DNA of 64,000 nt, from NCBI RefSeq assembly GCF_900176425.1, contig NZ_FWXS01000005.1, positions 62,001-126,000 of the forward strand, read 5' to 3'. The number at the start of each line of letters is the position of its first letter. The first letter of the stretch is position 1. This DNA comes from Moheibacter sediminis (lineage in GTDB: Bacteria; Bacteroidota; Bacteroidia; Flavobacteriales; Weeksellaceae). The notes under the pieces were generated by a model, which did no database searches, was not told the origin of the DNA, and saw only the letters and a program-made list of their open reading frames with translations. Shown piece by piece: positions 9,195-63,999 of the stretch. The position numbers and the translations under genes are program-made.

Positions 9195-9197
9195 TCT

Positions 9198-9476: not shown

Positions 9477-9483
9477 GTAGGCA

Positions 9484-9906: not shown

Positions 9907-9907
9907 T

Positions 9908-10642: not shown

Positions 10643-10668
10643 TTATTAATGATTAAGATTTAAGAGAA

Positions 10669-11088: not shown

Positions 11089-11101
11089 ATATTGAAATAA
11101 T

Positions 11102-11296: not shown

Positions 11297-11309
11297 AAAT
11301 TGTCTCAAG

Positions 11310-11567: not shown

Positions 11568-11568
11568 T

Positions 11569-11937: not shown

Positions 11938-11947
11938 AAATAAGACG

Positions 11948-12259: not shown

Positions 12260-12261
12260 AG

Positions 12262-12828
12262 ATGAGTACAAACACATACACACCGCGTCCGCAGCTGAAA
12301 TACAAAGAAGAAATCGTTTCTGCGTTGAAAGAAGAGTTTTCTTATACTTCAGTTATGCAGGTTCCAAAATTGCAGAAAATCGTAATCAGTCAAGGTTTGG
12401 GTGCAGCAACAGCTGACAAAAAAATAGTTGATTATGCAATCGAAGAATTGGAACTAATTACAGGACAAAAAGCCGTTGGTACTATTTCAAAGAAAGACGA
12501 AGCTGCATTTAAACTTCGTAAAGGAATGCCAATCGGAGCGAAAGTTACTTTGAGAGGAACTAAAATGTACGAATTTTTGGACAGATTGGTATCTTCATCT
12601 TTACCACGTATCCGTGATTTCAACGGAATCAGTGCAAAAGGTTTTGACGGAAGAGGAAACTACAACTTGGGTATTACCGAGCAAATCATTTTCCCTGAAA
12701 TCAACATCGATAAAGTAAAGAAAATCCAAGGTATGGATATCACTTTTGTGACTTCTGCAAACACAGACAAAGAAGCAAAAGCATTGTTAGAAAAATTCGG
12801 TTTACCATTCAAAAAAGATACTAAATAA
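12262..12828 (+). CDS. rplE: 50S ribosomal protein L5
   Basis: 188 residues with the L5 signature ([39 protein letters not shown] near the end). L5 binds 5S rRNA and contacts P-site tRNA. It lies 1 nt before rpsN. Confidence 0.97.
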
Positions 12829-12829
12829 G

Positions 12830-13099
12830 ATGGCTAAAGAATCAATGAAAGCGCGTGAGCGCAAGAGAGAAAAGTTGGCAGCTAAGTATGCAGACAAACG
12901 CAAAGCGTTATTGGAAGCAGGTGATTATGAAGGACTTCAAAAATTACCAAAAAATGCTTCTCCAGTACGTTTGCACAACAGATGCAAATTGACAGGCCGC
13001 CCAAGAGGGTACATGAGAACCTTCGGAATTTCTCGTGTGACTTTCCGCGAAATGGCTAACAACGGTTTGATCCCGGGTGTTAGAAAAGCAAGCTGGTAA
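12830..13099 (+). CDS. rpsN: 30S ribosomal protein S14, zinc-free form
   Basis: 89 residues of the longer, E. coli-like class. The motif [20 protein letters not shown] is intact, but the CxxC pairs of the zinc-binding class are absent (one Cys only). It ends the first half of the spc genes: a terminator follows 53 nt downstream. Confidence 0.97.
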
Positions 13100-13106
13100 G
13101 ATTTTC

Positions 13107-13130
13107 GTCATCCTGAGCTTGTCAAAGGAA
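13107..13130. repeat. Dispersed intergenic repeat, CCTGAGCTTGTC type
   Basis: GTCATCCTGAGCTTGTCAAA followed by GGAA closely matches a short element (consensus GTCATCCTGAGCTTGTCGAAGG) that I recall as scattered between genes in many bacterial genomes, Bacteroidota included. It has imperfect TCCT / AGGA arms. It lies just after rpsN. Confidence 0.45.
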
Positions 13131-13151
13131 TAGAAAATCTCTCAATATTAT

Positions 13152-13188
13152 AAAATCCAATCTTTTTTCGAAGGGATTGGATTTTTTT
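13152..13188 (+). terminator. Intrinsic terminator after rpsN
   Basis: AAAATCCAATC pairs with GATTGGATTTT (13152-13162 and 13175-13185) and the T run continues to 13188. It separates the rplC-rpsN unit from the inserted small gene. Confidence 0.85.
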
Positions 13189-13217
13189 GTATTTTAGAGA
13201 ACCAAATTCTAAAACCT

Positions 13218-13658
13218 ATGATCTCTAAAAGCTATTTTCCCAGAGTAATTTCAATTACTTTAATTCTATTAATTATTTTATTCGTTTTTTTGTCAATTTC
13301 AAATTATGATTTGGACATAATTTATTGGGTTGTATTTTTAATTCTTCCGTTGGTAATTATATTTCTATCTGTAAATTTAAAAGTGGAATTCAATAAAAAT
13401 GAAATACATTACACCTTATTTCCTTTTGTAAATAAAAAATTAGCTTGGAATGAAATCGATAAATATGAAATTGTGAAAATTTCTCCTCTTGGAGATTTTA
13501 TGGGATGGGGATTTCGTTATTCGTCCAAATATGGATGGTCTTATATTCTAGACACCAAATATGCAATAGCCATTCAGAAAAAGAATGGAAAGAAATTGGC
13601 TCTTTCAGTTAAGGAAGGACAAGAAATTTTAAGTTATTTGGAATCGATTGGAAAATAA
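13218..13658 (+). CDS. Small membrane protein with a PH-like domain, inserted in the spc genes
   Basis: 146 residues, not a ribosomal protein. Two hydrophobic segments (about residues 9-27 and 33-51) form a short hairpin anchor. The rest is a predicted cytoplasmic beta-rich domain (GWGFRYSSKYGWSYILDT, then a Lys-rich strand and a final helix), resembling bacterial PH-like domains found in small Bacteroidota membrane proteins. Function is unknown. It lies between the rpsN terminator and the rpsH promoter, and its base composition is AT-richer than its neighbours, so it is probably an insertion. I do not recognise a gene symbol. Confidence 0.75.
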   Translation: MISKSYFPRVISITLILLIILFVFLSISNYDLDIIYWVVFLILPLVIIFLSVNLKVEFNKNEIHYTLFPFVNKKLAWNEIDKYEIVKISPLGDFMGWGFRYSSKYGWSYILDTKYAIAIQKKNGKKLALSVKEGQEILSYLESIGK

Positions 13659-13694
13659 TATTTTAGATATTATTAAAAGTATTTATACACTTTT

Positions 13695-13724
13695 TTGCTA
13701 AATCAAAAAAACTTCCTACATTTG
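13695..13724 (+). promoter_or_regulatory. Promoter of the rpsH-secY-infA unit
   Basis: TTG at 13695-13697, a 19-nt spacer and TACATTTG at 13717-13724 match the consensus exactly. The leader to rpsH is about 85 nt and contains a stem TAGAATC / GGTTCTA (13775-13781 and 13787-13793) that could be a regulatory site. Confidence 0.8.
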
Positions 13725-13815
13725 CACGCCTAAATGTACTTGAACGAGTCATTTGGGAAGTTTAAGTTTAAAAGTAGAATCAAAGTGGTTCTATACTGTA
13801 AAATAAACAAAATTT

Positions 13816-14217
13816 ATGTACACAGATCCAATTTCAGATTATCTGACGCGTATCAGAAACGCGATGCAAGCTGGCCACAAAGTAGTGGAAATTCCTGCTT
13901 CCAACCTTAAAAAGGAGATTACTAAAATCCTTTTCGAACAAGGTTACATCTTGAACTACAAGTTCGAGGACACGACAAATCACCAAGGTTCTATCAAAAT
14001 CGCTTTGAAATATGACAAAGCAACCAAAGAACCGGTTATCAAAAAACTGAAAAGATATTCCCGTCCGGGTTTACGTCAGTACAAGGGCTCGGGAGAACTT
14101 CCAAGAGTATTGAACGGATTAGGAGTAGCAATCGTTTCTACTTCGAAAGGTGTTATGACTGACAAGCAAGCTCGTCAAGAGAATGTAGGTGGTGAAGTTT
14201 TGTGTTTAGTTTATTAA
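13816..14217 (+). CDS. rpsH: 30S ribosomal protein S8
   Basis: 133 residues with [17 protein letters not shown] and the end block [21 protein letters not shown]8 is a central-domain assembly protein and the known autoregulator of the spc operon in E. coli. Here it is the first gene of its own transcription unit. Confidence 0.98.
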
Positions 14218-14236
14218 TCCTTAAAAGAAAGAGAAA

Positions 14237-14782
14237 ATGTCAAGAATAGGAAAAGCAATCATCGCTATACCTGCAGACGCTTCAATCGAATTGAAGGACG
14301 GAGTAGTTACAGTTAAAGGAAAAAACGCTGAAATGACACAACCCATCAAAGAAGGTTTTGAATTGAAAATCGAAGATGGTCAGTTAACAGTAGTTCGTCC
14401 TTCAGACTCAAAAGAAGACAGAGCATTACACGGATTATACCGTGCATTGATTAATAATATGCTAACAGGTGTTACTACCGGTTTCAAAAAACATTTGGAA
14501 TTAGTCGGTGTAGGTTACAGAGCATCTAACCAGGGTCAAAGATTAGAACTGGCTTTAGGATTCTCTCACAATATCGTTTTGGAATTGCCAAAAGAAGTTG
14601 CAGTAGAAACTACAGCTGACAAAGGTAAAAACCCAACGATCATTTTGACTTCACATGACAATCAGTTGTTAGGAATGATTGCGGCAAAAATCCGTTCATT
14701 CCGTAAGCCTGAACCATACAAAGGAAAAGGTATCAAATTCGTAGGAGAAATAATTAGAAGAAAAGCAGGTAAATCTGCATAA
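14237..14782 (+). CDS. rplF: 50S ribosomal protein L6
   Basis: 181 residues, two L6 folds. The C-terminal signature reads PEPYKGKGIKFVGEIIRRKAGKSA. It lies near the factor-binding site of the ribosome and 19 nt after rpsH. Confidence 0.98.
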   Translation: MSRIGKAIIAIPADASIELKDGVVTVKGKNAEMTQPIKEGFELKIEDGQLTVVRPSDSKEDRALHGLYRALINNMLTGVTTGFKKHLELVGVGYRASNQGQRLELALGFSHNIVLELPKEVAVETTADKGKNPTIILTSHDNQLLGMIAAKIRSFRKPEPYKGKGIKFVGEIIRRKAGKSA

Positions 14783-14798
14783 TACATAGAATCGAACA

Positions 14799-15146
14799 AT
14801 GGCACTATCAAAAACAGAAAAAAGACAAAAGATAAAAAGACGTGTTCGTCGTAATATCTTTGGAACAGCTGAAAGACCTCGTTTATCAGTTTACCGTTCC
14901 AACAAAGAAATTTACGCTCAAATAGTTGACGATAATTCAGGAGTAACTTTGGCTTCAGCTTCATCAAGAGAGGCAAAAGCAACAGGAACTAAAACTGAGC
15001 AGTCAGCAGCAGTAGGGAAATTGGTTGCAGAAAAAGCAAAAGCAAAAGGAATCGAAACTGTAATTTTTGACAGAAACGGTTTCATTTATCATGGTCGAAT
15101 CAAAGCTTTGGCAGACGGAGCTAGAGAAGGTGGTTTAAAATTCTAA
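14799..15146 (+). CDS. rplR: 50S ribosomal protein L18
   Basis: 115 residues with [20 protein letters not shown] and the end block [24 protein letters not shown]. It binds 5S rRNA with L5. It lies 16 nt after rplF. Confidence 0.97.
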
Positions 15147-15158
15147 GAACAGAAAAAA

Positions 15159-15683
15159 ATGTTAGGATACAAAAATATAGAAAAAGTAAAACCAGCCGGA
15201 ATCGAATTGACTGACCGTTTGGTAGGAGTACAACGTGTAACCAAAGTGACCAAAGGTGGTCGCGCATTCGGATTCTCAGCTATCGTTGTGGTAGGTGACG
15301 GAAAAGGTGTAGTAGGTTACGGTTTAGGAAAATCTAAAGAGGTTGCTTCAGCTATCGCAAAAGCAGTAGAAGATGCAAAGAAAAATTTAGTAAGAATCCC
15401 ATTGGATGGACATACAGTTCCTCACGAAATTGAAGCACGTTATGGTGGTGGACACGTATTCTTGAGACCAGCTTCTCACGGTACAGGTTTGATCGCAGGT
15501 GGTGCAGTTCGTGCGGTATTGGAATCAGTAGGAATCCACGACGTATTGTCAAAATCAAAAGGATCTTCAAACCCTCACAATGTGGTAAAAGCTACTTTCA
15601 AAGCATTGTTGAATTTGAGAAGTGCGAACGTTGTTGCACGTCAGAGAGGTATTTCAATCAGTAAAGTGTTCAACGGTAAATAA
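15159..15683 (+). CDS. rpsE: 30S ribosomal protein S5
   Basis: 174 residues with the double-stranded RNA-binding block ([40 protein letters not shown]) and the S5 C-terminal fold. S5 takes part in decoding accuracy. It is 7 nt before rpmD. Confidence 0.98.
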
Positions 15684-15690
15684 GCGAAAA

Positions 15691-15867
15691 ATGGCAACAG
15701 TAAAAGTAAAACAAGTACGTAGCGCAATCAATCGCGATAAATCTCAAAAGGCAACTTTAGTAGCTTTGGGATTGAAAAAATTGAATCAAGTAGTTGAACA
15801 CGAATCTACTCCTCAGATTGAAGGTATGATTAGAAAGGTTCTGCATTTAGTTGAAGTGGAGAAATAA
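15691..15867 (+). CDS. rpmD: 50S ribosomal protein L30
   Basis: 58 residues, full length. The start is the ATG at 15691, giving MATVKVKQVRSAINRDKSQK; the upstream open frame lies within rpsE. Its presence is worth noting because L30 is missing in some bacteria. A short hairpin (TTTTTGC / GCAAAAA) follows the stop, before rplO. Confidence 0.96.
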   Translation: MATVKVKQVRSAINRDKSQKATLVALGLKKLNQVVEHESTPQIEGMIRKVLHLVEVEK

Positions 15868-15925
15868 TTTTTGCTGAGCAAAAATTTAATTTAACATTCA
15901 AAATTCATCATTCAAAATAATTAAA

Positions 15926-16399
15926 ATGAATTTAAGTAATTTAAAACCTGCACAAGGTTCAGTAAAAAATAAATTCCGTAAGGGTAGAGGGGAAGGCAGT
16001 GGAAACGCCGGAACTTCAGGTCGCGGACACAAAGGTCAGAAATCTCGTTCTGGTAACAAGAAAAAAGTAGGTTTCGAAGGTGGACAGATGCCTTTGCAAA
16101 GACGTGTTCCTAAATTCGGCTTCAAAAATATCAACCGAGTTGAGTACAACGGAGTGAACTTAGATGTTATCCAACAATTGATCGATAACAATAAAATTAC
16201 AGACACGCTTACAAAAGAGATATTGGTACAACAAGGTTTAGCTCACAAAAACGATTTGATCAAAATTTTAGGTCGTGGTGAATTAAAATCAAACGTAACA
16301 ATCATCGCTGATAAATTTACTAAAACAGCTCAAGAAGCAATCGAGAAAGCTGGAGGTAAAGCTGAAATAGTAGCAAAAAAAAGCAAAGTAGCTGAGTAA
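15926..16399 (+). CDS. rplO: 50S ribosomal protein L15
   Basis: 157 residues with the Gly/Arg-rich start ([20 protein letters not shown]) and the block [19 protein letters not shown]15 is a late assembly protein. It lies 58 nt after rpmD across AT-rich sequence with repeated ATTCAAAAT-like words. Confidence 0.97.
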
Positions 16400-16557
16400 A
16401 TTAATACTGAGATGCAACCCTAACCGGTTGCATCTTTATAGTAATTAAATAACAAGATTGAACACATGAAAGAAAAATATATGTGTTCAATAGAAAAATA
16501 ATCTTTAACACATGAAACATAGTTCCATGTGGCGAATTGTAAAAATAAACAGGACAC
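16400..16557 (+). promoter_or_regulatory. Structured secY leader with 46-nt tandem repeat
   Basis: The 158-nt gap holds three hairpins: GATGCAACC / GGTTGCATC (16411-16434), an 11-bp stem ATTGAACACAT / ATGTGTTCAAT (16457-16491), and CACATG / CATGTG (16509-16531). ACACATGAAA occurs at 16462, 16508 and 16554, exactly 46 nt apart; the third copy is the secY start. The first copy opens an 11-codon frame (16466-16501, MKEKYMCSIEK). Confidence 0.5.
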
Positions 16558-17925
16558 ATGAAAGGGTTTATACAAACTATAAAAAATATCTGGAGCATAA
16601 AAGAACTGAGAGAAAAGTTGATTCTTACGTTCACTTTTCTTATTGTTTACAGATTTGGTTCTTACATTCCACTTCCGGGTATTGACATCAATGAAGTAAC
16701 TCGATTGTTGGACGCTCAGTCAGATTCTCAACAAGGTATTTTGGGATTGTTAAATTCTTTTACGGGAGGTTCGTTTAACCGTGCTTCCATTTTAGCATTA
16801 GGGATCATGCCTTACATTTCTGCGTCGATTGTAGTTCAGTTGATGGGATTGGCTGTACCTTATTTGCAAAAATTACAAAAAGACGGAGACAGCGGCCGTA
16901 AGAAAATCACTCAGATTACTCGTTGGTTGACCATCGCCATTTGTTTGGTTCAGGCACCTGCTTACCTTACATTATTACAAACACAATTGTTACCATACAA
17001 TGGAGGTTTCCACTCTGCGTATTTATTAGATCCGGCTTCATTCTGGTTCATGGTTCCATCTGTAATTATTTTGATTACGGGAACTGTATTCACAATGTGG
17101 ATGGGAGAAAAAATCACAGACCGAGGAATCGGAAACGGTATTTCAATTTTGATTATGGTGGGAATCTTGGCAGATTTACCAAGAGCTTTACTGAATGCAT
17201 TTGAATTGGATACAACCGGAGGGATTTTCTTCTTGTTGGAAATAATCGGACTATTGATTGTCATCATGCTTTGTGTATTGTTAGTACAAGCTGTAAGAAA
17301 AATTCCGGTACAATACGTAAGAAGAGCTCAGGCAGGAAGCAGTAGTTACATGCGTTCTGTTACGGATTCAGTTCGTTCATACATTCCATTGAAAGTAAAT
17401 GCATCAGGGGTAATGCCAATAATCTTTGCGCAGGCAATTATGTTCTTACCGGCAACTTTGGTGGGAATGGTAGCTGATCAGGATTCATCCTGGGTTGTAT
17501 TTTTCCAGAAAGTAGCAGATCCGTTCTCTTGGCAGCATAGTGTTATATTTGCAATATTGATTATTGTATTTACATTCTTCTATACGGCAATTACAATTCC
17601 AGTTAACCAAATGGCTGACGATTTGAAACGCAACGGAGGAATCATCCCGGGTATCAAACCAGGAAAAGACACAGCTGATTATTTAGATGATATCTTGTCA
17701 AAAATTACATTTCCAGGATCATTGTTCTTGGTATTGATTGCAATTTTACCGGCAATCGTAAATATGCTTGGAGTAGATCAGAGCTTGGCGATGTTTTACG
17801 GAGGTACATCATTGTTGATCATGGTTGCAGTTATCTTGGATACAGTTCAGCAAATCAACACATATTTATTAAATCATCATTACGATGGTTTGATGTCAAC
17901 AGGTAGAAATAAAAACGTAGCTTAA
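16558..17925 (+). CDS. secY: Protein translocase subunit SecY
   Basis: 455 residues, ten predicted membrane segments, with the conserved RFGSYIPLPGID start, the plug-region block GSFNRASILALGIMPYISAS and the C-terminal cytosolic loop with KRNGGIIPGIKPGKDTADYL. It forms the Sec channel with SecE and SecG. It is preceded by an unusually structured 158-nt leader and followed 8 nt later by infA; adk and map, often found here, are absent. Confidence 0.98.
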   Translation: MKGFIQTIKNIWSIKELREKLILTFTFLIVYRFGSYIPLPGIDINEVTRLLDAQSDSQQGILGLLNSFTGGSFNRASILALGIMPYISASIVVQLMGLAVPYLQKLQKDGDSGRKKITQITRWLTIAICLVQAPAYLTLLQTQLLPYNGGFHSAYLLDPASFWFMVPSVIILITGTVFTMWMGEKITDRGIGNGISILIMVGILADLPRALLNAFELDTTGGIFFLLEIIGLLIVIMLCVLLVQAVRKIPVQYVRRAQAGSSSYMRSVTDSVRSYIPLKVNASGVMPIIFAQAIMFLPATLVGMVADQDSSWVVFFQKVADPFSWQHSVIFAILIIVFTFFYTAITIPVNQMADDLKRNGGIIPGIKPGKDTADYLDDILSKITFPGSLFLVLIAILPAIVNMLGVDQSLAMFYGGTSLLIMVAVILDTVQQINTYLLNHHYDGLMSTGRNKNVA

Positions 17926-17933
17926 GAAAATAA

Positions 17934-18149
17934 ATGGCAAAACAGAAACATATAGAGCAAGACGGAACCATCATAGAAGCATTGTCAAATGCAATGTTTC
18001 GTGTAGAATTAGAGAATGGTCACATAGTAACCTCTCACATTTCCGGAAAAATGAGAATGCACTATATCAAATTATTACCGGGAGACAAAGTAAAATTAGA
18101 AATGTCACCCTATGATTTATCAAAAGGAAGAATTACATACAGATATTAA
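17934..18149 (+). CDS. infA: Translation initiation factor IF-1
   Basis: 71 residues, the usual IF-1 length, a single S1-type OB fold ([54 protein letters not shown]). It blocks the A site during initiation. It is the last gene of the rpsH unit and is followed by a terminator. Confidence 0.98.
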
Positions 18150-18168
18150 TTTGTAATTTTAAAAATAC

Positions 18169-18207
18169 AAAAGCTGTTTCAATATAAAATTGATTCAGCT
18201 TTTTTTA
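18169..18207 (+). terminator. Intrinsic terminator after infA
   Basis: AAAAGCTG pairs with CAGCTTTT, with a second inner stem TCAAT / ATTGA, and a run of T follows. It separates infA from the alpha-operon genes. Confidence 0.8.
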
Positions 18208-18278
18208 AGTTAAAAATGAATGTAATTCACTCATTAATAAAATAATTTAGAAATGCATAAGTATTTAAATAATTTTTA

Positions 18279-18286
18279 TACCTTTG
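18279..18286 (+). promoter_or_regulatory. Promoter -7 element of the rpmJ-rplQ unit
   Basis: TACCTTTG matches TAnnTTTG and is followed by CACA like the rplC and rpsH promoters. No TTG is present 19 nt upstream, so the -33 element is weak. Transcription should start near 18292. Confidence 0.65.
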
Positions 18287-18315
18287 CACACTTTAATGGG
18301 TAAAAATGATACAGT

Positions 18316-18366
18316 TAGTAAGTTGACAAAGCTTACTACCTTTTTTATTGTTTACTCGTGAGTAAA
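18316..18366 (+). promoter_or_regulatory. Attenuator-like leader of the rpmJ-rpsM-K-D-rpoA-rplQ operon
   Basis: Just after the predicted transcription start, TAGTAAG (18316-18322) pairs with CTTACTA (18332-18338), followed by CC and six T residues: the form of an intrinsic terminator. A second stem TTTACTC / GAGTAAA (18351-18366) follows. This could be a premature terminator that an operon product, such as S4, controls; that role is inferred. Confidence 0.5.
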
Positions 18367-18417
18367 TAAAATACTGACTGGAGGCATAATGCCGGAGCAA
18401 ATTAAATAACAGCAAAA

Positions 18418-18534
18418 ATGAAAATTAGAGCATCTATCAAAAAAAGAAGTGCTGACTGCAAAATTGTACGCAGGAAAGGTGTACTGTACGTGATTAATAA
18501 GAAGAATCCTAAATTTAAACAAAGACAAGGTTAA
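18418..18534 (+). CDS. rpmJ: 50S ribosomal protein L36, zinc-free variant
   Basis: 38 residues ([20 protein letters not shown], ending KFKQRQG). The zinc form has Cys11, Cys14, Cys27 and His33; here only Cys14 remains, so no zinc ribbon can form. This matches the variant usual in Bacteroidota. It is 3 nt before rpsM and opens the alpha operon. Confidence 0.95.
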
Positions 18535-18537
18535 GAT

Positions 18538-18915
18538 ATGGCACGTATTTCAGGAGTAGATTTACCAAAAAACAAAAGAGGAGAAATAGGTCTTACCTAC
18601 ATCTACGGTATTGGTAAAAGCACAGCACAAAAGATATTAGCGGAAGCTAATGTTGACAAAGACAAAAAAGTAAATGAATGGAACGATGATGAAATCAACG
18701 CAATCCGTTTGTCAATTACTGAAAACCACAAAGTGGAAGGAGAACTTCGTTCTGAAATCCAATTGAACATCAAACGTATGATGGACATCGGATGTCAGCG
18801 AGGAATTCGTCACAGACTTGGATTACCTTTAAGAGGTCAGAGAACCAAAAACAACTCTCGTACGAGAAAAGGTAAAAAGAAAACAGTTGCTAACAAGAAA
18901 AAAGCCACTAAATAA
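18538..18915 (+). CDS. rpsM: 30S ribosomal protein S13
   Basis: 125 residues with [26 protein letters not shown] and the C-terminal block [25 protein letters not shown]13 contacts P-site tRNA and bridges the subunits. Confidence 0.98.
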
Positions 18916-18926
18916 TAGATAGAGTT

Positions 18927-19316
18927 ATGGCAAAGAATCAAAAAACAGCAAAGAAAAGAAAAGTAATTGTAGAGGCGGTAGGTCAAGCACATATCCAAGC
19001 TTCTTTCAATAACGTAATCATAACTTTGACTAATAAAAACGGAGAAGTTATTTCTTGGTCATCTGCCGGGAAAATGGGCTTCAGAGGATCTAAAAAGAAC
19101 ACACCTTACGCTGCACAAGTTGCTGCACAGGATGCTACGGCTCAAGCTTTGGAAGCTGGTCTTAGAAGAGTGAAAGTGTATGTTAAAGGACCGGGGCAAG
19201 GACGCGAGTCTGCCATCAGAACCATCCACAACAATGGTATCGAAGTAAGCGAAATTATTGATGTTACGCCATTGCCGCACAACGGTTGTCGTCCACCAAA
19301 ACGCAGAAGAGTGTAA
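18927..19316 (+). CDS. rpsK: 30S ribosomal protein S11
   Basis: 129 residues with [20 protein letters not shown] and the end [19 protein letters not shown]11 is a platform protein near the mRNA exit. It lies 11 nt after rpsM. Confidence 0.98.
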
Positions 19317-19389
19317 CAAATTGAAAATGTTGAATTCTAAATTAACAATTTAAAAATTCAAACTTCAAAAATCAAAATTTTAAAATAAA

Positions 19390-19992
19390 ATGGCAAGATA
19401 TACAGGACCAAAAACTAAAATCGCAAGAAAATTCGGACAACCTATCTTTGGTGACGACAAAAGTTTCGAAAAGAAAAAATACCCTCCAGGACAACACGGC
19501 CCTAACAAAAGGAGAGGTAAAAAATCTGAATATGCGGTTCAGTTAGAAGAAAAACAAAAAGCTAAATATACGTACGGAATCCTTGAGCGTCAGTTCGAGA
19601 ACATGTACAAAAAAGCAAATGCTGCAAAAGGAATTACCGGTGAAATCCTTTTACAATATTGCGAATCTCGTTTAGACAACGTGGTTTACCGTTTAGGTAT
19701 CTCACCTTCACGCAGAGGAGCTCGTCAGTTGGTAGGACACAAGCACATCACTGTAAATGGTGAAGTAGTAAACATCCCTTCATACCAATTGAAAGCAGGT
19801 GATGTTGTAGCAGTACGCGAAAAATCAAAAACATTGATCGCTATCACCGAATCATTGAGATCCCGTTCAACTTACGATTGGTTGATTTGGAACGATGAGC
19901 AAATGTCAGGTACATTTAATTCAGCTCCTGAAAGAATCCAGATTCCGGAAGACATCAAAGAACAATTGATTGTCGAATTATACTCTAAATAA
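19390..19992 (+). CDS. rpsD: 30S ribosomal protein S4
   Basis: 200 residues with [21 protein letters not shown], the S4 RNA-binding domain ([20 protein letters not shown]) and the end block LIVELYSK. S4 starts small-subunit assembly and is the autoregulator of the alpha operon in E. coli, so it is the best candidate to act on the leader at 18316-18366. Confidence 0.98.
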
Positions 19993-20017
19993 TTTTAAAT
20001 TAAAAGAGAAACAGCAA

Positions 20018-21010
20018 ATGACAATTTTAAATTTTATAAAACCAGACAAAGTAGTTTTAGTCGAATCAGATCATAACTATGGACAATTCGAATTCCGCCC
20101 TTTGGAGCCGGGTTACGGATTGACTATAGGGAACGCTTTGCGCAGAGTATTGCTTTCTTCACTAGAAGGACACGCAATCACTTCTGTAAAAATCGAAGGA
20201 GTTGACCACGAGTTCTCAACCATTTCAGGTGTGGTAGAAGATATGACTGAAATTATTTTGAATCTGAAAAAAGTTAGATTCAAAAGACAGATCAGTGACT
20301 CAGATACCGAAACAGTTACTGCTTCTATCTCAGGTCAGGATCAATTAACTGCCGGTGATTTAGGGAAATTCATTTCTGGATTCCAGATTTTAAACCCTGA
20401 TTTTGTAATCGCCAACATGGATAAAAAAGTGAAATTAGACTTCACTTTCACTATCGAAAAAGGTAGAGGATATGTTCCAGCTGATGACAACAAAAAAGCA
20501 AATGCACCTATCGGGACGATAGCTATAGATGCCATTTATACGCCAATAAAAAACGTAAAATACAGCATTGAAAACTACCGTGTAGAGCAAAAAACCGACT
20601 ACGAAAAATTGATTCTTGAAATCACTACTGACGGTTCTATTGCACCACAAGATGCTTTGACTGAAACAGCTAAGATCTTGATTCACCACTTCATGTTATT
20701 CTCTGACGAAAGAATTACCCTTGAAACAGAAGAAGTAGCATACGGTGAAACTTACGATGAAGAAGCACTTCACATGAGACAATTGTTGAAAACCAAATTG
20801 GTTGATATGGACTTGTCTGTACGTGCTTTGAATTGTCTTAAAGCAGCTGAAGTGGAAACCTTAGGAGAACTGGTTTCTTACAACAAATCAGATTTGATGA
20901 AATTCCGAAACTTTGGTAAAAAATCTCTTACAGAATTAGAAGAGTTAGTGGACAACAAAGGATTGAATTTCGGAATGGATATTTCAAAATATAAGTTAGA
21001 CGTAGAATAA
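20018..21010 (+). CDS. rpoA: DNA-directed RNA polymerase subunit alpha
   Basis: 330 residues, the usual length. The N-terminal dimerisation domain has [20 protein letters not shown] and [14 protein letters not shown]; the C-terminal alphaCTD ([21 protein letters not shown]) binds upstream promoter DNA and activators. The chosen ATG at 20018 gives [13 protein letters not shown], the conserved Bacteroidota start; an earlier in-frame ATG lies in rpsD. Confidence 0.98.
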
Positions 21011-57332: not shown

Positions 57333-60300
57333 TTAAAATCCAAAATTCAATCCAGCAGAGATTCTTCCGCCATCATCTCCGTAGAAATAATTGACCTTTC
57401 CGGTAATCATTCCAACACCGTTTAACCAGATACCGCCACCATAAGATTGGTGCCATTTGGTAGAGTTTTCTTCATCCATCCAAACCCTTCCGTAATCATA
57501 CCCCAAAAGGATTCCATATTTCATCGGGATAAATGTATTTTTAGTTTTACCAATCAACAACCTCAAATCTGTACTTTGCGAAAAGGAATGCCTCCCCGTA
57601 AATCTTCCTTGACGATAACCTCTCAAATCCGCGTCACCACCAACCGTTGCGCCTTGATGAAATTCAAAATGATTGTTGAAAATCGTTTTTCCTCTGAATA
57701 ATGTGGCAAAAGTTAAGATTTCACTTGAAGTAATTTTATGCGTAAATCCTATGGCACCTGCCATGTAAGGAAAACTTTTTTTGGTATCATCCAGATTGGT
57801 TTTCCAATATCCTTCCAATTCCAACAACATTCCCATTGTAGGCAATGAAAGGTTGTCATAATTTCTAAAAGTAAATTTTGCGCCTGCTTCCCCGAAATAT
57901 TGATGGTCAAAAACTTCAGGATTGATTTCCGGGCTGAATTCAGTAATTCTCCCATCCGTTCTCGAAACCAAAATATCTTCAAAGCTGGTTTTAAATGTGA
58001 GCTTAGTATTGTTTCTTCCTAATTTATAAATCGATGGACTGATTTTCAGCGTTTGCATCCGCACGCGGTTGTAATCCATTCCCAATTCATCTTCGTAAGT
58101 TTCCGTTTCGTTTCCATATCCAAAGAAATTGGTGCTGAAAGTCGGACTTGTAAATCCTGCCATCAATTCCAGATTCCATTTTCCGATGAATTTCGCAAAA
58201 GTTCCTGTGTAAGTCAATTCATAACCGCTTGTTGCGAAATAATAATTAGCCAATAAATTGTGTTTTCGGGTAAATGGATTTCGGTCAAAACCATTGACTG
58301 TGTAAGTGAAATTCATTCCCAATTTCACACCATCATCAGGATTATAACCCGCTGAAGGCAATCCTGTAAACTTGTTGTAATGCGGTTTTCTATAATCATA
58401 ACTATTTAATTCATAGTCATTTGAAAGATATTTTCTTGCTTTTTTAGCTTGCTCGAAATCATCTTTTTTACCTGAAAAATCATAAATTCGAACTTTCTTT
58501 CCGTTTGCCACAACATAATTATCAGCATCTTGTCCGCCGATCAATCTTACAAGAATTGGGTTCTGCGGTTTACCGACAACTTCAAATTTATCCTGGTCAT
58601 TCATCCCATAAATCCAGATTTCCTTGGTTTCATTTTTGAAATAATTTTTCTCAAAAAACAATTCTTCAGCGTCCTTTTTCAAACGATAAATCTGCACTTT
58701 GGTTTCACCTTTTGGAAGCCTTGTAATCACAAATTTATCATCCTTATCAGTTCCGGTAAGTAAAACTGTTTTGCGTAAAACTTTGTAATATTCTTCTGCA
58801 TAATCCTTTAATTTTGGTTTACGGATTTTGAGTGTTTTTTTGATTTCAGCAAGATTTTCATCTTTAACTTCATCGGGCAAATTCTGAAATGAATTGTTAA
58901 TGATTTCATCGGTTAAATTTTCAATGATGTAATTTGCCTCGGAAATCCAATCTTCTTTGGTTGAATTTTTTGTAAATGCCAAATCCATCGGATAAGGCTC
59001 CATGTTGAACCATTTTACATTTCTGATGTTTTCTGTAAAGGGCTGCATGTGTTTGAGTGCAGGAATTCTCATGACCAAATTCAACAAAAACCCGTCATAT
59101 TTCGGGAAAACCTGGTCTCTGTCGCGTGCAATCGGACGGTAAATAATTTCTCCGTTTTCTTCAAATGCCGCCCAACGCCATTGGTCGGAATGCCTGTCCC
59201 AATCACCCAAAAGCATATCAAATAACCTTGCTCTGATGTACATTTTTTCATCGACTTTATACTTTTCATCGCTGCGCATATTTGCCAGTAATTCATCTGT
59301 ACCGATGATGTCATTTGGTTTTCCAAAACTTTCCTCGTCAGAGAATTTTTTCATCGGACGTTCCTCTACCATGTATAATTCATCGCCATATTCATCATTA
59401 AATTCCTGCAAAACATTTTGTTTAGGGATATAAAATAATTGTGGATTGCTGTGGTAAAGACCCAACGGATTGGCTAATTCATTAATTGCAAATGGATAAA
59501 AAGGATGCGTCGTGGTGTAAAAATCCAATAAAAATTCTTCTGTATAAGTATTTTCAAAATCCTTTTCTACATATTGGTCTTTGAACGCAACCGCCTGCAG
59601 AAAACGAGTCGCGCTTTTTTTCACGGCGCGCATTACATATTCTTTTCCTTCCGGATTGACCAATCTCAGCGACCTTGATTGGTGACCGCCGCCAGATCTT
59701 AGCGGTGACAACCCGCCTTTGTGCGTAGTTAAATCCAAAACAGTTGCTTGAATGGGAGAACTGTAATAAGTACGGTAATGTTCACCAAAAAAGAATTTAT
59801 AACCTTTGCTTTTTGTCGTCAATTGATTCGTATAAATCTGAGTTTCTTTTTTCGAAGAAAAATCAGGATTGAATACAAAAGCTTTGATTTCTTCAGGTTT
59901 TGAAATGACTTCATGTGTGAACAAAAGTTTTTCTTCTCCGTTTTCATTTCCGTAATAATTCACAATTGAATTTCCTTTTTCATATACATTTAAAACGGCG
60001 TAACCATTTCCTCCGTAAGAAAAATCATTTTCATAAATTGCTCTTGCAGCTTCTGTTTTGGAGCCCGAACCGCTGATGATTTGTCTGATATTATCTTTTT
60101 CGATGTATTGCAAATTGTGTTCGTGCCCGGAAACAAAAATAACATTTTCACGGTCTTCGAGCAAAGTTATGATGCGATTGGTCAGCGTTCTGTAAACATT
60201 GTTCTGAATGTCCTGAGGACTGACGCCCGAAGTTTTTCTGATTAAATTCGCTAAACTTCCCAAAACCGGAAGCGGAATGTTACTTTCCAGCGGGAACAAT

Positions 60301-61058
60301 TGTTTTCTCAACGAAAACTGCCCTCCATGCGTTCCATTGCTCATAATCGGATGATGAATGGCAACGATGGTCGTCTGATTTTGGTATTTATTCAAATAAC
60401 TTTCAAATTCTTCTAAAAAATCTTCACGGGTTTTGATGTCACATTCCTCATTGATTTTAGCATAACGATCCCAGTCCTCCAGAAACCATTGGCTGTCAAT
60501 CACAATCATCGAAAGATTTTCGTTAATGTCTTTGTGGTCAATTCCACAGCTTTTTCTTGGCAGAAATGATTTTTTCTTTCCTATTTTTTCTTTGATAAAT
60601 TTTTCTTGTTCCTGCAAACCTTTCAAACCATGGTACCAATCGTGATTTCCGGGAATGAAAATCATATCTCCTTTGAAATTTTCTTTTAAATCGATTTGAT
60701 TTTGAAGCTTGATTTCGGCTTGTTTTCTCTCTTCCGAATCCAATTCTGCCGGCATTCCATTTGGATAAATATTGTCTCCCAAAAACAATAGGGTAGAAGC
60801 AGAGTCGGCTTTTTCAATTCTGTTTTTCAGCAAAGCCAATGTTTCGATTGATTTGGGTTCATCTGCATTTCCGGCATCGCCAATCAGGAAAAACTGATGC
60901 AAGATTTTATCTGAATTTTCTTCTTTAGCAATAGGATCTTTAATTCCTTTTCCAAATTGAACTCTATGCGTCGAACATGAGGAAATTATTATTGTAGAAA
61001 TAAGTATGAGATACTTTATGTAATTTTCAAGCGTTAAATCCTTAATTTTACCTGACAT
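57333..61058 (-). CDS. Three-part surface protein: calcineurin-like phosphoesterase, kinase-like middle, Omp85-type barrel
   Basis: 1241 residues from the ATG at 61058; ATG codons at 61070 and 61118 exist but reach into the divergent gene. Lipid Cys28 (SSCS). Residues about 50-330 are a metallophosphoesterase: GDAG, GDN, GNHD, HHP and GHEH motifs. Residues about 465-700 have a kinase-like pattern: GGGHQSRS, then YVMRAVKK (Lys near 478), GDWDRH (618-623) and ARDRDQVF (644-651). From about 895 a 16-strand-type barrel of the Omp85/BamA class ends in GLNFGF. The first and last parts are clear; the middle assignment is inferred. Probably an outer-membrane-anchored phosphatase. Confidence 0.8.
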   Translation of the reverse strand: MSGKIKDLTLENYIKYLILISTIIISSCSTHRVQFGKGIKDPIAKEENSDKILHQFFLIGDAGNADEPKSIETLALLKNRIEKADSASTLLFLGDNIYPNGMPAELDSEERKQAEIKLQNQIDLKENFKGDMIFIPGNHDWYHGLKGLQEQEKFIKEKIGKKKSFLPRKSCGIDHKDINENLSMIVIDSQWFLEDWDRYAKINEECDIKTREDFLEEFESYLNKYQNQTTIVAIHHPIMSNGTHGGQFSLRKQLFPLESNIPLPVLGSLANLIRKTSGVSPQDIQNNVYRTLTNRIITLLEDRENVIFVSGHEHNLQYIEKDNIRQIISGSGSKTEAARAIYENDFSYGGNGYAVLNVYEKGNSIVNYYGNENGEEKLLFTHEVISKPEEIKAFVFNPDFSSKKETQIYTNQLTTKSKGYKFFFGEHYRTYYSSPIQATVLDLTTHKGGLSPLRSGGGHQSRSLRLVNPEGKEYVMRAVKKSATRFLQAVAFKDQYVEKDFENTYTEEFLLDFYTTTHPFYPFAINELANPLGLYHSNPQLFYIPKQNVLQEFNDEYGDELYMVEERPMKKFSDEESFGKPNDIIGTDELLANMRSDEKYKVDEKMYIRARLFDMLLGDWDRHSDQWRWAAFEENGEIIYRPIARDRDQVFPKYDGFLLNLVMRIPALKHMQPFTENIRNVKWFNMEPYPMDLAFTKNSTKEDWISEANYIIENLTDEIINNSFQNLPDEVKDENLAEIKKTLKIRKPKLKDYAEEYYKVLRKTVLLTGTDKDDKFVITRLPKGETKVQIYRLKKDAEELFFEKNYFKNETKEIWIYGMNDQDKFEVVGKPQNPILVRLIGGQDADNYVVANGKKVRIYDFSGKKDDFEQAKKARKYLSNDYELNSYDYRKPHYNKFTGLPSAGYNPDDGVKLGMNFTYTVNGFDRNPFTRKHNLLANYYFATSGYELTYTGTFAKFIGKWNLELMAGFTSPTFSTNFFGYGNETETYEDELGMDYNRVRMQTLKISPSIYKLGRNNTKLTFKTSFEDILVSRTDGRITEFSPEINPEVFDHQYFGEAGAKFTFRNYDNLSLPTMGMLLELEGYWKTNLDDTKKSFPYMAGAIGFTHKITSSEILTFATLFRGKTIFNNHFEFHQGATVGGDADLRGYRQGRFTGRHSFSQSTDLRLLIGKTKNTFIPMKYGILLGYDYGRVWMDEENSTKWHQSYGGGIWLNGVGMITGKVNYFYGDDGGRISAGLNFGF

Positions 61059-61068
61059 ATTTTGAATC

Positions 61069-62271
61069 ATGAGTGATTTATTACAAAAAGCTGAACAATT
61101 TGTTTTCGAGCTATTCAAAGATAAACTAAGTTCTGAACATACTTATCATAATTTTCTGCATACGGAATTTGTAGTTCAGAAAACCAAGGAACTGATTGAA
61201 AATGAATCTGTTTCAGACCAAGAAAAAGAACTGCTTCTTTTGGCTGCATGGTTTCATGATACGGGGCATGTACAAGGCGCTGAGAACCACGAAGAAAAAA
61301 GTTTTGAAATCGCAATTTCATTTTTGAAAGAAAATAATTTTTCAGATGCTGAAATTCAATCCATTAAAGAAATTATACTCAATACTTGCATCAACCATAA
61401 TGCTTCTTGTAAATTGGGTAAAATCCTTAGAGATGCTGATTCAGCGCATTTAGGAAGTGAAATGTATGAGGAAATCAGCCGTCAGCTCCGCCTGGAATGG
61501 GAATTAATTAATGGTAAAAAATTGACTGATTACGAATGGAATCTGGAGAATTATAATTTTCTAACGCGTGAACATAAATATTTTACAGATTACGCCAAAA
61601 TGCACTGGCAGCCTGTGAAAATGCAAAATGTATTTAAGATTCAAAATGAAATAAATACATACAGAAATGAAGGTTTGTCAAAACAGGAAATCAAGAAAAA
61701 GAAACTCGAAAAACTGGAACGCCCGGAGCGCGGAATCGAAACCATGTTTCGTGTGACACTCAATAATCATACGCGTTTGAGCGAGATTGCAGACAGTAAA
61801 GCAAACATTCTTCTTTCTGTAAATGCCATTATCATTTCCATTGCTTTGTCTACACTTTTACCAAAATTGGGGACGCCCAAAAATGCGTATTTGGTTGTAC
61901 CGACTTTGACGATGCTGTTAGTAAGTGTTTTGAGTATTATTTTTGCGATTTTGGCTACGAAACCCAATATCACAAAGGGAGTTTTTACGCAAGAAGATGT
62001 TCAAAACAAAAAAGTAAACCTTTTGTTTTTTGGTAATTTTTACAAAATGCCACTTGATAAATACGAATCCGGAATGAATGAAGTGATGAATGACCGTGCT
62101 TATCTCTATAATTCATTAACCCGCGATTTGTATTACCTGGGATTGGTATTGAATAAAAAATACAAAATGCTTCGCCTTACTTATTACGTATTTATGTTTG
62201 GAACGATTGCGACGGTGATTGCATTTGTGTATGCATTTCAGCAAAATGGCGGAATGGAAGGATTATTTTAA
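61069..62271 (+). CDS. HD phosphohydrolase fused to PycTM effector domain
   Basis: 400 residues. The N-terminal HD domain has H31, the HD pair (H63, D64) in WFHDTGH and D122 in RDADSAH, the metal site of the HD hydrolases. After a Lys-rich linker comes a PycTM/DUF5706-type domain (residues about 225-400) with the signature SEIADSKANILLSVN and three membrane helices (about 246-264, 276-297 and 373-391). PycTM domains are the membrane-damaging effectors of Pycsar antiphage systems, triggered by cCMP or cUMP. No pyrimidine cyclase gene is nearby, so a signalling role other than defence is possible. Its start codon is 10 nt from that of the divergent gene. Confidence 0.87.
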   Translation: MSDLLQKAEQFVFELFKDKLSSEHTYHNFLHTEFVVQKTKELIENESVSDQEKELLLLAAWFHDTGHVQGAENHEEKSFEIAISFLKENNFSDAEIQSIKEIILNTCINHNASCKLGKILRDADSAHLGSEMYEEISRQLRLEWELINGKKLTDYEWNLENYNFLTREHKYFTDYAKMHWQPVKMQNVFKIQNEINTYRNEGLSKQEIKKKKLEKLERPERGIETMFRVTLNNHTRLSEIADSKANILLSVNAIIISIALSTLLPKLGTPKNAYLVVPTLTMLLVSVLSIIFAILATKPNITKGVFTQEDVQNKKVNLLFFGNFYKMPLDKYESGMNEVMNDRAYLYNSLTRDLYYLGLVLNKKYKMLRLTYYVFMFGTIATVIAFVYAFQQNGGMEGLF

Positions 62272-63999
62272 TCCCGCAACCAATTCTTCATACGTAAAAT
62301 AAGCCTGATTTTTCATTTCTTCTTGACGCAGAATTTTCACACGAAGTGCTTTCAAACCGGTAATTCCTTGTAAATTTTCTACTTGAAGAAATTCAGTTTC
62401 AGCATCTAAAATTCCTTTGTGCTGTAGGAATTTTATATATTTCAAATATTCTGTTTCTTCGTTGGAATGAGAATACACAATTGTAATTTTTCCGGGTTGT
62501 GTGATTCTTTCATCCGTATCTTTTACAAAAGCTTTATCAATTCGTTTTTTGACGATTTCATAGCGCGCATTGTAAGTTCCGTCCACATCAAAACGTTTTT
62601 CATCCATTCGGAAACGAATCGCTAAAGGCTGATTGAAAGCGAGAATAAGAGAAGTCACATCCAATTGAATTGGTAAAAATGGCTTGATTCGATGGTGTTC
62701 ATTTTCCATTTCACAAATTGCCTGCAGCTGCCACAAACGCATATTGTACAAATACAGCAAATCGAAATTTCGGGTAGGCGTGATGGACGAACCGATGTAA
62801 ATGTTATGCTCGATACCATCGGTTTTAAATCTTTCAAAATAATGTGGGAAAACCTGCTGAATTCCAACTTGTTTTTCATCCAAAACACTTGCCAGTTTTT
62901 TGTTGATGATGCTGATGGTATCGTCAAAATTTTGTCTGGCATGGTAATACAGACCAGTAATTGGATCCAATGATTTCAAATAACGTGAAATGCTGTTGTT
63001 TTGATTTTCATCCAGATTTAAATTTGCTAAAATCGGATGAATTTCATTGGCAATGTATTGCTGGATTTCTTGTTCAGTTCCGGCTTCTAATGAGAAATTT
63101 AAATTATTCAGATGAGATTCGATTTCAAATTTCCGCTGATCCAAAAGTTCAAGTTTCGTTTGCTTTTTTAATTCATCCAAAACATCCATCAACATATTCA
63201 ATTGATTTTGAATGTCTTCTTTGATGCAATTATTTCTCGCAACAGAAGAATTTTTGATGTCCACTTCGCCATACAAAGCATATACATCTTGAAACATCAC
63301 TTCCCTGAAAGCATAATCCTGTGTCGGACTTTTGATGAAATTTTCCGCTTCTTTCTGAAATTTCCACGCAACACTTGGATGGATGCTCGTATATTCTTTT
63401 TGAATCAAAGCATCTGTCAGATTGGAAATTTCACGTTGAGCACGTTCCATCGATTCAATTAAAAAAGACAAAATCAAATCAATTCTTTGCGCAGTAATAG
63501 AATTGAAACCATGAGGCGTTTCAGAAACAAATTCCATAATACCCAAAAGATTATCGTCTTTTTTCATCGGAATCAGCATCGCACTTTTTACGCCCGATTT
63601 CTGAAGTTTCAGAGCCACTTCTTCGTCCGGATGCGATACGATGTATTTGTCTGTATTTGAAATTACAAAAGGTTTATTTTCATTTAAATGTTTCAGAAAA
63701 CGGCTATTTTCAACCGGTATAGAATCGTGATTTGAATGTACCAATTGTGATGTCACATAATCATTGAATGTAGTTTTTACGATTCTTTTAGTCAAAGGAT
63801 TGTAGTCCGAAATCCCAACACTCAAATCTTTGACGTTAAAAATAGATTTTAAATTATCTTCAAGTCTTTCAGTCGAACTGTGTTTGTCTGAATTTGATTT
63901 ATTGAGCAATTCTTGCTTCAAATTAGAAACCGAAGTTTCAATCGTCGCATCATACAAATTCATGAGCCCAAAACCTTTGAGCAGCCAGCTTTGCGGTGG
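62263..63999 (-). CDS. GAF-domain protein (5' end outside the window)
   Basis: The frame is open to the window edge: 12 codons upstream of the ATG at 63963 read PPQSWLLKGFGLM without a stop, so the true start is further right. From that ATG 566 residues remain. A GAF domain is visible at about 95-175 (NTDKYIVSHPDEEVALKLQK, MLIPMKKDDNLLGIMEFVSE). The rest is helical with coiled coil, ending in ALRVKILRQEEMKNQAYFTY. Ligand and role are unknown. Its stop overlaps the end of the HD-PycTM gene by 9 nt. Confidence 0.8.
   Translation of the reverse strand, partial: PPQSWLLKGFGLMNLYDATIETSVSNLKQELLNKSNSDKHSSTERLEDNLKSIFNVKDLSVGISDYNPLTKRIVKTTFNDYVTSQLVHSNHDSIPVENSRFLKHLNENKPFVISNTDKYIVSHPDEEVALKLQKSGVKSAMLIPMKKDDNLLGIMEFVSETPHGFNSITAQRIDLILSFLIESMERAQREISNLTDALIQKEYTSIHPSVAWKFQKEAENFIKSPTQDYAFREVMFQDVYALYGEVDIKNSSVARNNCIKEDIQNQLNMLMDVLDELKKQTKLELLDQRKFEIESHLNNLNFSLEAGTEQEIQQYIANEIHPILANLNLDENQNNSISRYLKSLDPITGLYYHARQNFDDTISIINKKLASVLDEKQVGIQQVFPHYFERFKTDGIEHNIYIGSSITPTRNFDLLYLYNMRLWQLQAICEMENEHHRIKPFLPIQLDVTSLILAFNQPLAIRFRMDEKRFDVDGTYNARYEIVKKRIDKAFVKDTDERITQPGKITIVYSHSNEETEYLKYIKFLQHKGILDAETEFLQVENLQGITGLKALRVKILRQEEMKNQAYFTYEELVAGLK

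Follow-up and report, generated by a model that had tools for sequence, protein, structure and literature searches.

The three-module gene

The window (the whole stretch of 64,000 nucleotides that was analysed) contains a minus-strand ORF, 57333..61118, that encodes 1261 aa if counted from the first TTG, whereas the ATG start at 61058 yields a protein of 1241 aa with zero internal stops in the ORF translation. The gene, its predicted parts and its two neighbours are listed below, with residue counts given for 156 non-identical relatives including the window protein.

57333..61058, minus strand: whole gene; predicted lipoprotein with a phosphoesterase of the purple acid phosphatase (PAP) type, a kinase-like domain and an Omp85 barrel (1241 aa)
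60975..61058, minus strand: signal peptide and lipobox with Cys28; positions +2 to +7 carry no acidic export signal (sequence pattern)
59904..60905, minus strand: predicted PAP-type metallophosphoesterase, residues 52-385 (PF00149, fold match to 2bq8, motifs)
58773..59801, minus strand: kinase-like domain, residues 420-762 (AlphaFold; Foldseek, VIA)
59670..59693, minus strand: Gly-rich loop GGGHQSRS, residues 456-463 (G456 in 153/156, G457 in 151/156, Q460 in 149/156)
59616..59618, minus strand: Lys481, in the beta-3 Lys position where a core strand ends (model strand E69-77; 152/156)
59190..59207, minus strand: catalytic-loop motif GDWDRH, residues 618-623 (D621 in 147/156; hhalign with HipA_C)
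59115..59126, minus strand: RDRD, residues 645-648, DFG-like metal-site motif (D646 in 153/156, D648 in 151/156)
58422..58769, minus strand: beta-rich linker, residues 764-879, about 11 short strands in the full model's secondary structure, resembling a solenoid as judged by eye
57342..58373, minus strand: 16-stranded Omp85 barrel, residues 896-1239 (full model, VIA, motif)
61069..62271, plus strand: divergent neighbour, protein with an HD domain and PycTM (Pfam)
62263..63963, minus strand: second neighbour, weakly GAF-like protein (GAF E 2e-4, just under the cut-off)

A promoter and terminator scan gave no excess over shuffles (15 vs. 13.4 and 3 vs. 3.4), and PADLOC made no call on the three-module protein itself.

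Export of the protein is well supported, in agreement with the location beyond the cytoplasm proposed in the first-pass annotation: following the signal peptide, the window protein has a lipobox-like Cys28, and a site of this kind is present in 76 of the 77 full-length relatives under a pattern widened to allow Tyr, Gln and similar residues ahead of Ser-Cys (34/77 under a narrower pattern). Most short forms have a signal peptide, lipobox or N-terminal anchor, as judged by eye. Lipoproteins destined for the surface typically carry acidic residues just after the lipobox cysteine; none of the 76 lipobox-bearing full-length relatives has at least two acidic residues at positions +2 to +7, and cell-surface exposure was thus judged unlikely. 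Since the lipid-anchor sequence comes without a surface-export signal, both enzyme domains probably face the periplasm.

The first enzyme domain is predicted to be a PAP-type hydrolase. PF00149 matches residues 56-251 with E 1.4e-9, and the modelled module aligns with human PAP (2bq8) over 269 residues with a VIA Z-score of 29.4, as expected for the metallophosphoesterase previously noticed at the lipidated N-terminus. The PAP motifs DxG, GDxxY, GNH[DE], VxxH and GHxH form a complete set in the window protein (D61xG63, GD95xxY98, GN138H139D140, H235 and GH312xH314, respectively), and their key residues are largely retained among the 28 rows of alignment A4: D95, H235 and H312 in all 28, H314 in 26, D61 in 25, and Y98, N138 and H139 in 23 each. 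The module shares with PAP/TRAP both the fold and the metal-ligand motifs, but differs in its lipid anchor and in its fusion partners, a kinase-like domain and a barrel.

At the C-terminus, the full model contains a barrel of 16 strands that matches TamA (VIA Z 25.5) and also BamA, consistent with its earlier description as BamA-like. The R-G-Y/F loop motif of Omp85 proteins is present as DLRGYR at residues 1144-1149, and the NCBIfam model Omp85_fam matches residues 1065-1210 with E 4e-14, yet under the model's cut-off. No Pfam match to POTRA is listed for the whole protein; its place is occupied by the beta-rich linker, modelled within the full protein. Taken together, the PF00149 match, the kinase-like model and the barrel matches uphold the reading of the polypeptide as three modules.

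Fold and active-site residues of the middle domain

The kinase-like fold of the middle domain is well supported by structure modelling. The AlphaFold model (pLDDT 89.7, pTM 0.88) has a two-lobed kinase-like fold according to both Foldseek and VIA, with VIA Z-scores of 14.5 for CotH, 14.3 for PI4K-II, 13.3 for CtkA, 11.2 for HipA and 10.4 for Fam20C, and with PI3-kinases also among the matches listed. All 50 VIA matches listed for this model (Z 10.4-14.5) are, by title, kinase-fold proteins or kinase-inhibitor complexes, the lack of other folds in VIA listings not being counted as evidence; with the full-length model, the 50 matches listed are phosphatases and barrels, and kinases are absent among them. 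Of the alignments used for structure prediction, A2 comprised 62 of 80 loci and A3 comprised 23 of 77 full-length ORFs. Structure prediction and fold search thus agree on what had been suspected from the motifs, the predicted fold of the middle region being related to kinases. Proteins of the protein-kinase-like fold superfamily are collected in Pfam clan CL0016 (PMC9758233).

Sequence comparisons place the domain apart from known families. The middle-domain set comprised 64 rows (BLAST E 1e-12, span of 180 query residues), and alignment A1 included the window protein and 41 of the other 63 rows. No significant match for the middle domain was found in whole-protein searches of Pfam, NCBIfam and PDB (phmmer). 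In a profile search of PDB with 42 relatives the best kinase was CtkA (E 0.35), which ranked below an unrelated chain (E 0.17), and in Pfam searches with 42 members it was CotH (E 0.014 in one member), behind an unrelated family (E 0.0018). Both the CotH profile (PF08757) and the HipA_C profile (PF07804; E 0.25) were found in one member out of 42, below their cut-offs, the window protein having no listed CotH match at E 1, and the Pfam matches listed for the window protein and for the 42-member set do not include the Fam20C family.

Profile–profile comparison by hhalign yielded for HipA_C a score of 31.4 with a probability of just 15%, while the controls scored at most 17.6 (40 column-shuffled alignments), 16.9 (reversed), and 21.4 and 11.8 (two unrelated alignments). 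In this comparison, GDWDRHSDQW is placed on the HipA catalytic loop, and D621 coincides with the loop Asp. The HipA alignment comprised 11 of 12 rows, the remaining one being interrupted by a stop in every reading; a weak thirteenth match was left aside. For CotH, the score of 21.9 (E 0.055) exceeded those of shuffled alignments (at most 17.5), but was no better than that of the unrelated phosphoesterase control (21.4), and hence only the HipA_C score was counted.

The motifs named in the first-pass annotation, GGGHQSRS, the near-invariant Lys, GDWDRH and DRDQVF (residues 646-651), stand at the positions given there. Residues were counted in 156 of the 158 non-identical rows, after removal of two that covered fewer than 18 of the 25 positions; in addition to the counts listed above, D619 is retained in 155 and H623 in 149. 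As K481, D619, D621, H623, D646 and D648 are kept in 147-155 of the 156 relatives against a mean column identity of 38% in 42 diverse rows, these motifs are not due to chance. The beta-3 Lys, the catalytic Asp and the DFG-like Asp are present as K481, D621 and D646, respectively, with roles assigned by position and not by measured geometry. One detail has changed: D648 had been singled out for mutation in the last motif, whereas it is D646 that we take to occupy the DFG Asp place, comparing by eye with HipA, CotH and Fam20C; both are near-invariant.

K481, D621, D646 and D648 are jointly present in 145 of the 156; a core residue is missing in 11, in one of them (L015) since its frame stops there, and D621 is lost in nine. 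The metal-binding Asn expected five residues after the catalytic Asp is replaced by Gln626 in 151/156, Asn being found in three. Fam20-type kinases likewise depart at this position, and thus the metal-binding Asn is not universal. In five loci an intact copy adjoins a copy lacking D621, suggesting that there is normally selection for activity.

Architectures and gene neighbourhood

Among the 395 genomes sampled from the phylum, 145 encode the middle domain; its forms are fused, kinase-barrel and kinase-only, and some kinase forms have no barrel in the same ORF. In loci L045 and L172, the kinase, phosphatase and barrel are encoded by three consecutive ORFs of the same direction; these split operons belong to a tree group otherwise lacking a fused phosphatase (tree of 111 out of 183 rows, Flavobacteriales thinned). 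The idea that every kinase form pairs with this phosphatase was not borne out: 28 genomes have a kinase form to which no phosphatase is fused, and in 20 of these no match to the phosphatase family was found at E 1e-5. Among the eight matching genomes, G177 and G193 also have a fused form, G110 and G306 have the split operons, G207 and G412 have a stand-alone gene, and in G316 and G380 the match covers only a short C-terminal stretch.

Neighbour counting covered four gene families, none of them for lipid synthesis. The HD-PycTM neighbour has a tblastn match in 67/80 and 29/40 relatives' loci, and in the 80-locus set it lies divergently upstream in all 67; in the 29 loci it is a single HD-PycTM ORF in 19, two ORFs in one and the PycTM part alone in nine. 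The GAF-like neighbour was matched in 59/80 and 9/40 loci, and an SdiA-regulated propeller gene in 25 of the 40 diverse loci.

Polyphosphate kinase 1 (PPK1) is encoded within the same 20 kb at 13 of the 40 diverse loci, from seven families, with 0.3 expected, and both PPK1 examples tested have the full PP_kinase domain set. It is also linked in L051, L053 and L182, outside the 40-locus set. Stand-alone phosphatase-family members lie approximately 2 and 4 kb from PPK1 in G412 and G207, respectively, and a fused member approximately 2 kb from it in G193. The linkage was observed in none of the 80 Flavobacteriales-type loci, which span at most 6 kb on each side, and in the window's own genome PPK1 is on a different contig.

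Relation to known systems and possible function

The Omp85 "Metallo" subfamily, with PF00149 and an Omp85-type barrel, has been listed as one of the non-POTRA architectures (Heinz and Lithgow, 2014, PMC4104836), and the window protein has both. PF00149 is treated as a metalloprotease domain in that paper (PMC4104836) and as a calcineurin-like phosphoesterase in Pfam, and the word "kinase" does not occur in the paper's main text, where the middle domain is undescribed. We regard the middle domain as a genuine and new kinase-like family within an Omp85 subfamily already on record; together with the kinase-barrel forms and the split operon, it adds to the "Metallo" subfamily of 2014. An enzyme fold is thereby assigned within a subgroup in print since that year, in a widespread protein whose middle third had no family model and whose kinase-like domain often has a fused or neighbouring phosphatase.

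CotH spore-coat kinases (PF08757; 5jd9) are the best VIA match (249 aligned residues, 13% identity), but the window family lacks membership in their profile, and we know of no barrel or phosphatase in CotH proteins. With HipA and CtkA the family shares the fold and, for HipA_C, the aligned catalytic loop, but has Gln in place of the loop Asn; HipA and CtkA are not known to have an export signal or a barrel. Fam20C and the pseudokinase Fam20A provide an extracytoplasmic kinase fold and, likewise, a pairing of intact and degenerate members. The secretory kinase Fam20C is known from animals (PMC7948968).

On balance, we lean towards an outer-membrane lipoprotein that combines a PAP-type hydrolase with a new kinase-like enzyme acting on an envelope substrate. 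The barrel and the N-terminal lipid would anchor both enzyme domains to the outer membrane on its periplasmic side, where the kinase domain, with nucleotide- and metal-site residues largely intact, could phosphorylate or nucleotidylate an envelope protein, lipid or glycan, and the phosphatase domain, where present, might dephosphorylate the same substrate or clear a by-product. Little ATP is expected in the periplasm, and we counted this against catalysis. A special case of this explanation, a lipid or small-molecule kinase of the PI4K type with an outer-membrane lipid or glycan as its substrate instead of a protein, is a tentative possibility: in fold similarity, PI4K-II alpha and beta are level with CotH, and the barrel tethers the catalytic domain to the membrane, but HipA and CtkA are close as well. 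Also compatible with it, and in our view rather unlikely, is a role in polyphosphate or phosphate metabolism, where the PAP domain would degrade polyphosphate and the kinase-like domain use or move it at the outer membrane; it would account for the excess of PPK1 in the diverse loci and for the phosphatase-family genes near it, but not for the Flavobacteriales-type loci or the window genome, and linkage is no proof of shared chemistry.

Replacement of the HipA metal-binding Asn, loss of D621 in some relatives and the doubtful nucleotide supply beyond the cytoplasm would fit a pseudokinase, that is, a non-catalytic sensor of a ligand or phosphate regulating the phosphatase or the barrel; given the joint retention of the four core residues and the pairing of degenerate with intact copies, we consider this unlikely. 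Equally improbable, in our estimation, is the more specific model of one polypeptide as both writer and eraser of an envelope phospho-mark, with a donor other than cytoplasmic ATP, possibly exported PPK1 polyphosphate, and with intact and degenerate copies paired as in Fam20C/Fam20A. Omp85 proteins in general serve protein assembly and transport, and for subfamilies of unknown function this is the conservative view (PMC4104836); that the protein is chiefly an assembly or translocation factor with substrate-binding N-terminal modules seems, however, quite unlikely, as no POTRA was recognised, two enzyme-type active sites are conserved, and kinase forms occur without a barrel in the same ORF.

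Reversible phosphorylation beyond the bacterial cytoplasm is little explored, and the apparent pairing of a phosphatase and a kinase-like domain in one outer-membrane protein would make it a testable idea. The phylum includes genetically tractable laboratory strains, and in several of its families the gene neighbourhood connects the kinase-like family to polyphosphate kinase.

Domain composition and predicted fold

The open reading frame is intact, spans 1241 amino acids counted from the ATG, and is single-copy in a search of its 3.2-Mb source genome, with no second match. It lies head-to-head with a neighbor, in a conserved arrangement:

57333–61058, minus strand: protein with fused phosphoesterase, kinase-like and barrel modules
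61069–62271: HD plus PycTM (Pycsar-effector-type membrane) protein

With the whole protein as query, only Metallophos (residues 56–251) passes in Pfam, phmmer against the PDB retrieves purple acid phosphatases and GAP50, and the NCBIfam model Omp85_fam matches residues 1065–1210, under its cut-off; none of these searches links the middle third significantly to a curated family. A model of residues 405–790, based on an alignment with 62 relatives, has pLDDT 89.7 and pTM 0.88. Foldseek yields 525 matches to it at E ≤10, eight of them at E ≤0.001, with CtkA the best (1.5e-5), then HipA (3.8e-4) and CotH (7.3e-4); TM-scores to the targets are modest (0.25–0.52 over the first eight rows). The near-full-length model (residues 42–1241; 24 alignment rows; pLDDT 81.5, pTM 0.76) retains the order of elements and has 16 barrel strands.

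Pairwise fold comparisons by VIA
Middle domain, CotH: Z 14.5, rmsd 4.0, 249 aligned
Middle domain, PI4K-II: Z 14.3, rmsd 4.4, 257 aligned
Middle domain, CtkA: Z 13.3, rmsd 4.5, 236 aligned
Middle domain, HipA: Z 11.2, rmsd 4.3, 218 aligned
Middle domain, PI3-kinase p110 gamma: Z 11.2, rmsd 4.2, 228 aligned
Middle domain, Fam20C: Z 10.4, rmsd 4.8, 225 aligned
Full model, human purple acid phosphatase: Z 29.4, rmsd 2.8, 269 aligned
Full model, TamA: Z 25.5, rmsd 3.0, 294 aligned

The first-pass annotation had described a phosphoesterase, a kinase-like domain and an Omp85-type barrel in one polypeptide, and this holds as a whole: the N-terminal metallophosphoesterase is seen both in Pfam and in the purple acid phosphatase match, the BamA-like barrel in the 16 strands and the TamA match, and the predicted kinase-like fold, given the CotH, PI4K-II, CtkA and HipA matches, is supported further than a reading of the sequence could go. 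What this domain does is something we infer.

Putative active site and probable cellular location

Residue conservation, counted across 156 non-identical sequences of the kinase-like domain, is 152 for K481, 155 each for D512 and D619, 147 for D621, 151 for Q626, 153 for D646 and 151 for D648; 11 sequences lack at least one of K481, D621, D646 and D648, among them L015, where the cause is the end of the reading frame. Since profile–profile alignment of the middle domain with HipA_C (hhalign, 11 rows) sets GDWDRHSDQW on the HipA catalytic loop, D621 is likely the catalytic Asp. This match scores 31.4, above all controls (40 column shuffles, at most 17.6; the reversed alignment, 16.9; two unrelated alignments, 21.4 and 11.8), with a reported probability of only 15%. 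HipA has Asn in the loop, whereas the kinase-like domain has Gln626 at the same place. D646, placed by eye, is likely the DFG-type Asp. For the phosphatase motif residues, conservation ranges from 23 to all 28 of the 28 aligned rows. Two kinase–barrel relatives are divergent: L058 matches the kinase profile weakly, and L057 has eroded motifs (GDWEEGMDAW) and a probably non-catalytic kinase-like domain.

The N-terminus had been noted as lipidated, in agreement with a lipobox-like site in 76 of 77 full-length relatives. Acidic residues after the lipobox Cys signal surface export; in all 76, positions +2 to +7 hold at most one such residue, and thus the lipid anchor probably stays in the inner leaflet, with the enzymes in the periplasm. 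By eye, a signal peptide, lipobox or N-terminal anchor is recognizable in most short forms. ATP is expected to be scarce in the periplasm, and this is the main difficulty for the kinase reading.

Genomic context of the kinase-like genes

Two sets of loci were considered: 80 nearest-relative loci of Flavobacteriales type (≤6 kb either side), the best 80 among the matches listed in an all-species scan, and 40 diverse loci (up to 20 kb each, some shortened by contig ends). Homologs of the HD-PycTM protein occur in 67/80 and 29/40 loci, respectively, SdiA-regulated (phytase-like) proteins in 60/80 and 25/40 (e.g., L063:8704–9588, L218:10452–11312), and GAF-like proteins in 59/80 and 9/40; all three and polyphosphate kinase 1 (PPK1) are absent from 8/80 and 9/40. 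The window itself has no match to the SdiA-regulated protein. In the 29 diverse loci, HD-PycTM is a single two-part ORF in 19, two ORFs in one, and the PycTM part alone in nine. The gene is divergently upstream in all 67 Flavobacteriales-type loci having it, with starts ≤80 bases apart in 59 of 66 measured. It also lies near kinase–barrel forms without the phosphatase, e.g., in L189 and L193.

PPK1 is linked in 13/40 diverse loci (L185, L192, L193, L196, L197, L203, L205–L207, L215, L218, L221, L222) vs. 0/80 Flavobacteriales-type ones, and is also near kinase-like genes in L051, L053 and L182; both PPK1-like ORFs checked by Pfam are true polyphosphate kinases. All 40 genomes of the diverse loci carry PPK1 (62 copies), so that chance would give 0.3 linked loci (naive P 2e-18). 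Common descent alone does not easily explain the linkage, because the 13 loci span seven families. In several loci PPK1 is convergent with the kinase-like gene, within ~25 bases; a fused gene is ~2 kb from PPK1 in genome G193, stand-alone phosphatases are ~2 kb (G412) and ~4 kb (G207) from it, and in the window's own genome PPK1 is on a different contig. Two PPK1 copies are present in ten of the 13 genomes; in every one of these, the copy linked to the kinase-like gene is the weaker PP_kinase match, and linked copies perhaps form a separate subgroup.

Kinase-only genes in L052, L174 and L176 (three genomes, one family) are divergently oriented, with intact GDWDRH copies and a GDWSRR copy; L046 and L182 have tandem kinase–barrel genes, one intact and one degenerate, and in L047 both copies are intact. 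By analogy only, the intact/degenerate pairs recall Fam20C with Fam20A, a pseudokinase described as activating Fam20C (PMC7948968).

Distribution, architecture and known Omp85 subgroups

The full-protein query (E 1e-3) matches 21/59 relatives and 89/198 genomes of the phylum, some by a single module, and the middle-domain profile (E 1e-5) matches 145/395 genomes of the phylum. Among named contigs, the window's best match is from a Flavobacterium; on the tree, rows of its family group with Chryseobacterium and Kaistella, which makes Weeksellaceae the probable family. The 183 non-identical kinase-like ORFs, which include the 80 loci chosen as nearest relatives, comprise 139 phosphatase–kinase–barrel, 28 kinase–barrel and 16 kinase-only forms (contig ends may have truncated L180 and L181, and hence their labels), and these labels require 10 changes on a quick tree. 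Loci L045 and L172 encode the three modules separately, as successive ORFs for kinase, phosphatase and barrel, and in L045 both Metallophos and Omp85 exceed the Pfam cut-off. The remaining members of their tree group (support 99) lack the fused phosphatase. No other observation speaks as strongly for joint working of the three modules as this regrouping of separate parts. It is a single event, as both genomes belong to one genus, and joint working is weighed against by 20 of 28 genomes that have a kinase form without fused phosphatase and give no match to this phosphatase family at E 1e-5.

The main text of Heinz and Lithgow (2014; PMC4104836) distinguishes ten Omp85 subfamilies, including “Metallo” with PF00149, which its section 10 terms a metalloprotease domain; a term search of that text does not find “kinase.” The name appears mistaken, because PF00149 in Pfam is the calcineurin-like phosphoesterase. 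The “noNterm” barrels, described there as resembling “Metallo,” may, at a guess, be the kinase–barrel forms. The kinase-like family, predicted from sequence and models, is new within an already known Omp85 subgroup; we found no description of the domain in the searchable full-text literature, which includes few subscription papers. A metallophosphoesterase of Riemerella is probably a different protein, since a review places it among T9SS effectors (PMC10202324). Five plasmid records match, four annotated as “hypothetical protein” and one without annotation.

Elsewhere in the window, positions 8373–21010 hold an ordinary cluster of ribosomal-protein genes, secY and rpoA (seven ORFs tested), and positions 618–2297 encode an LRR protein that carries a C-terminal sorting domain for type IX secretion.
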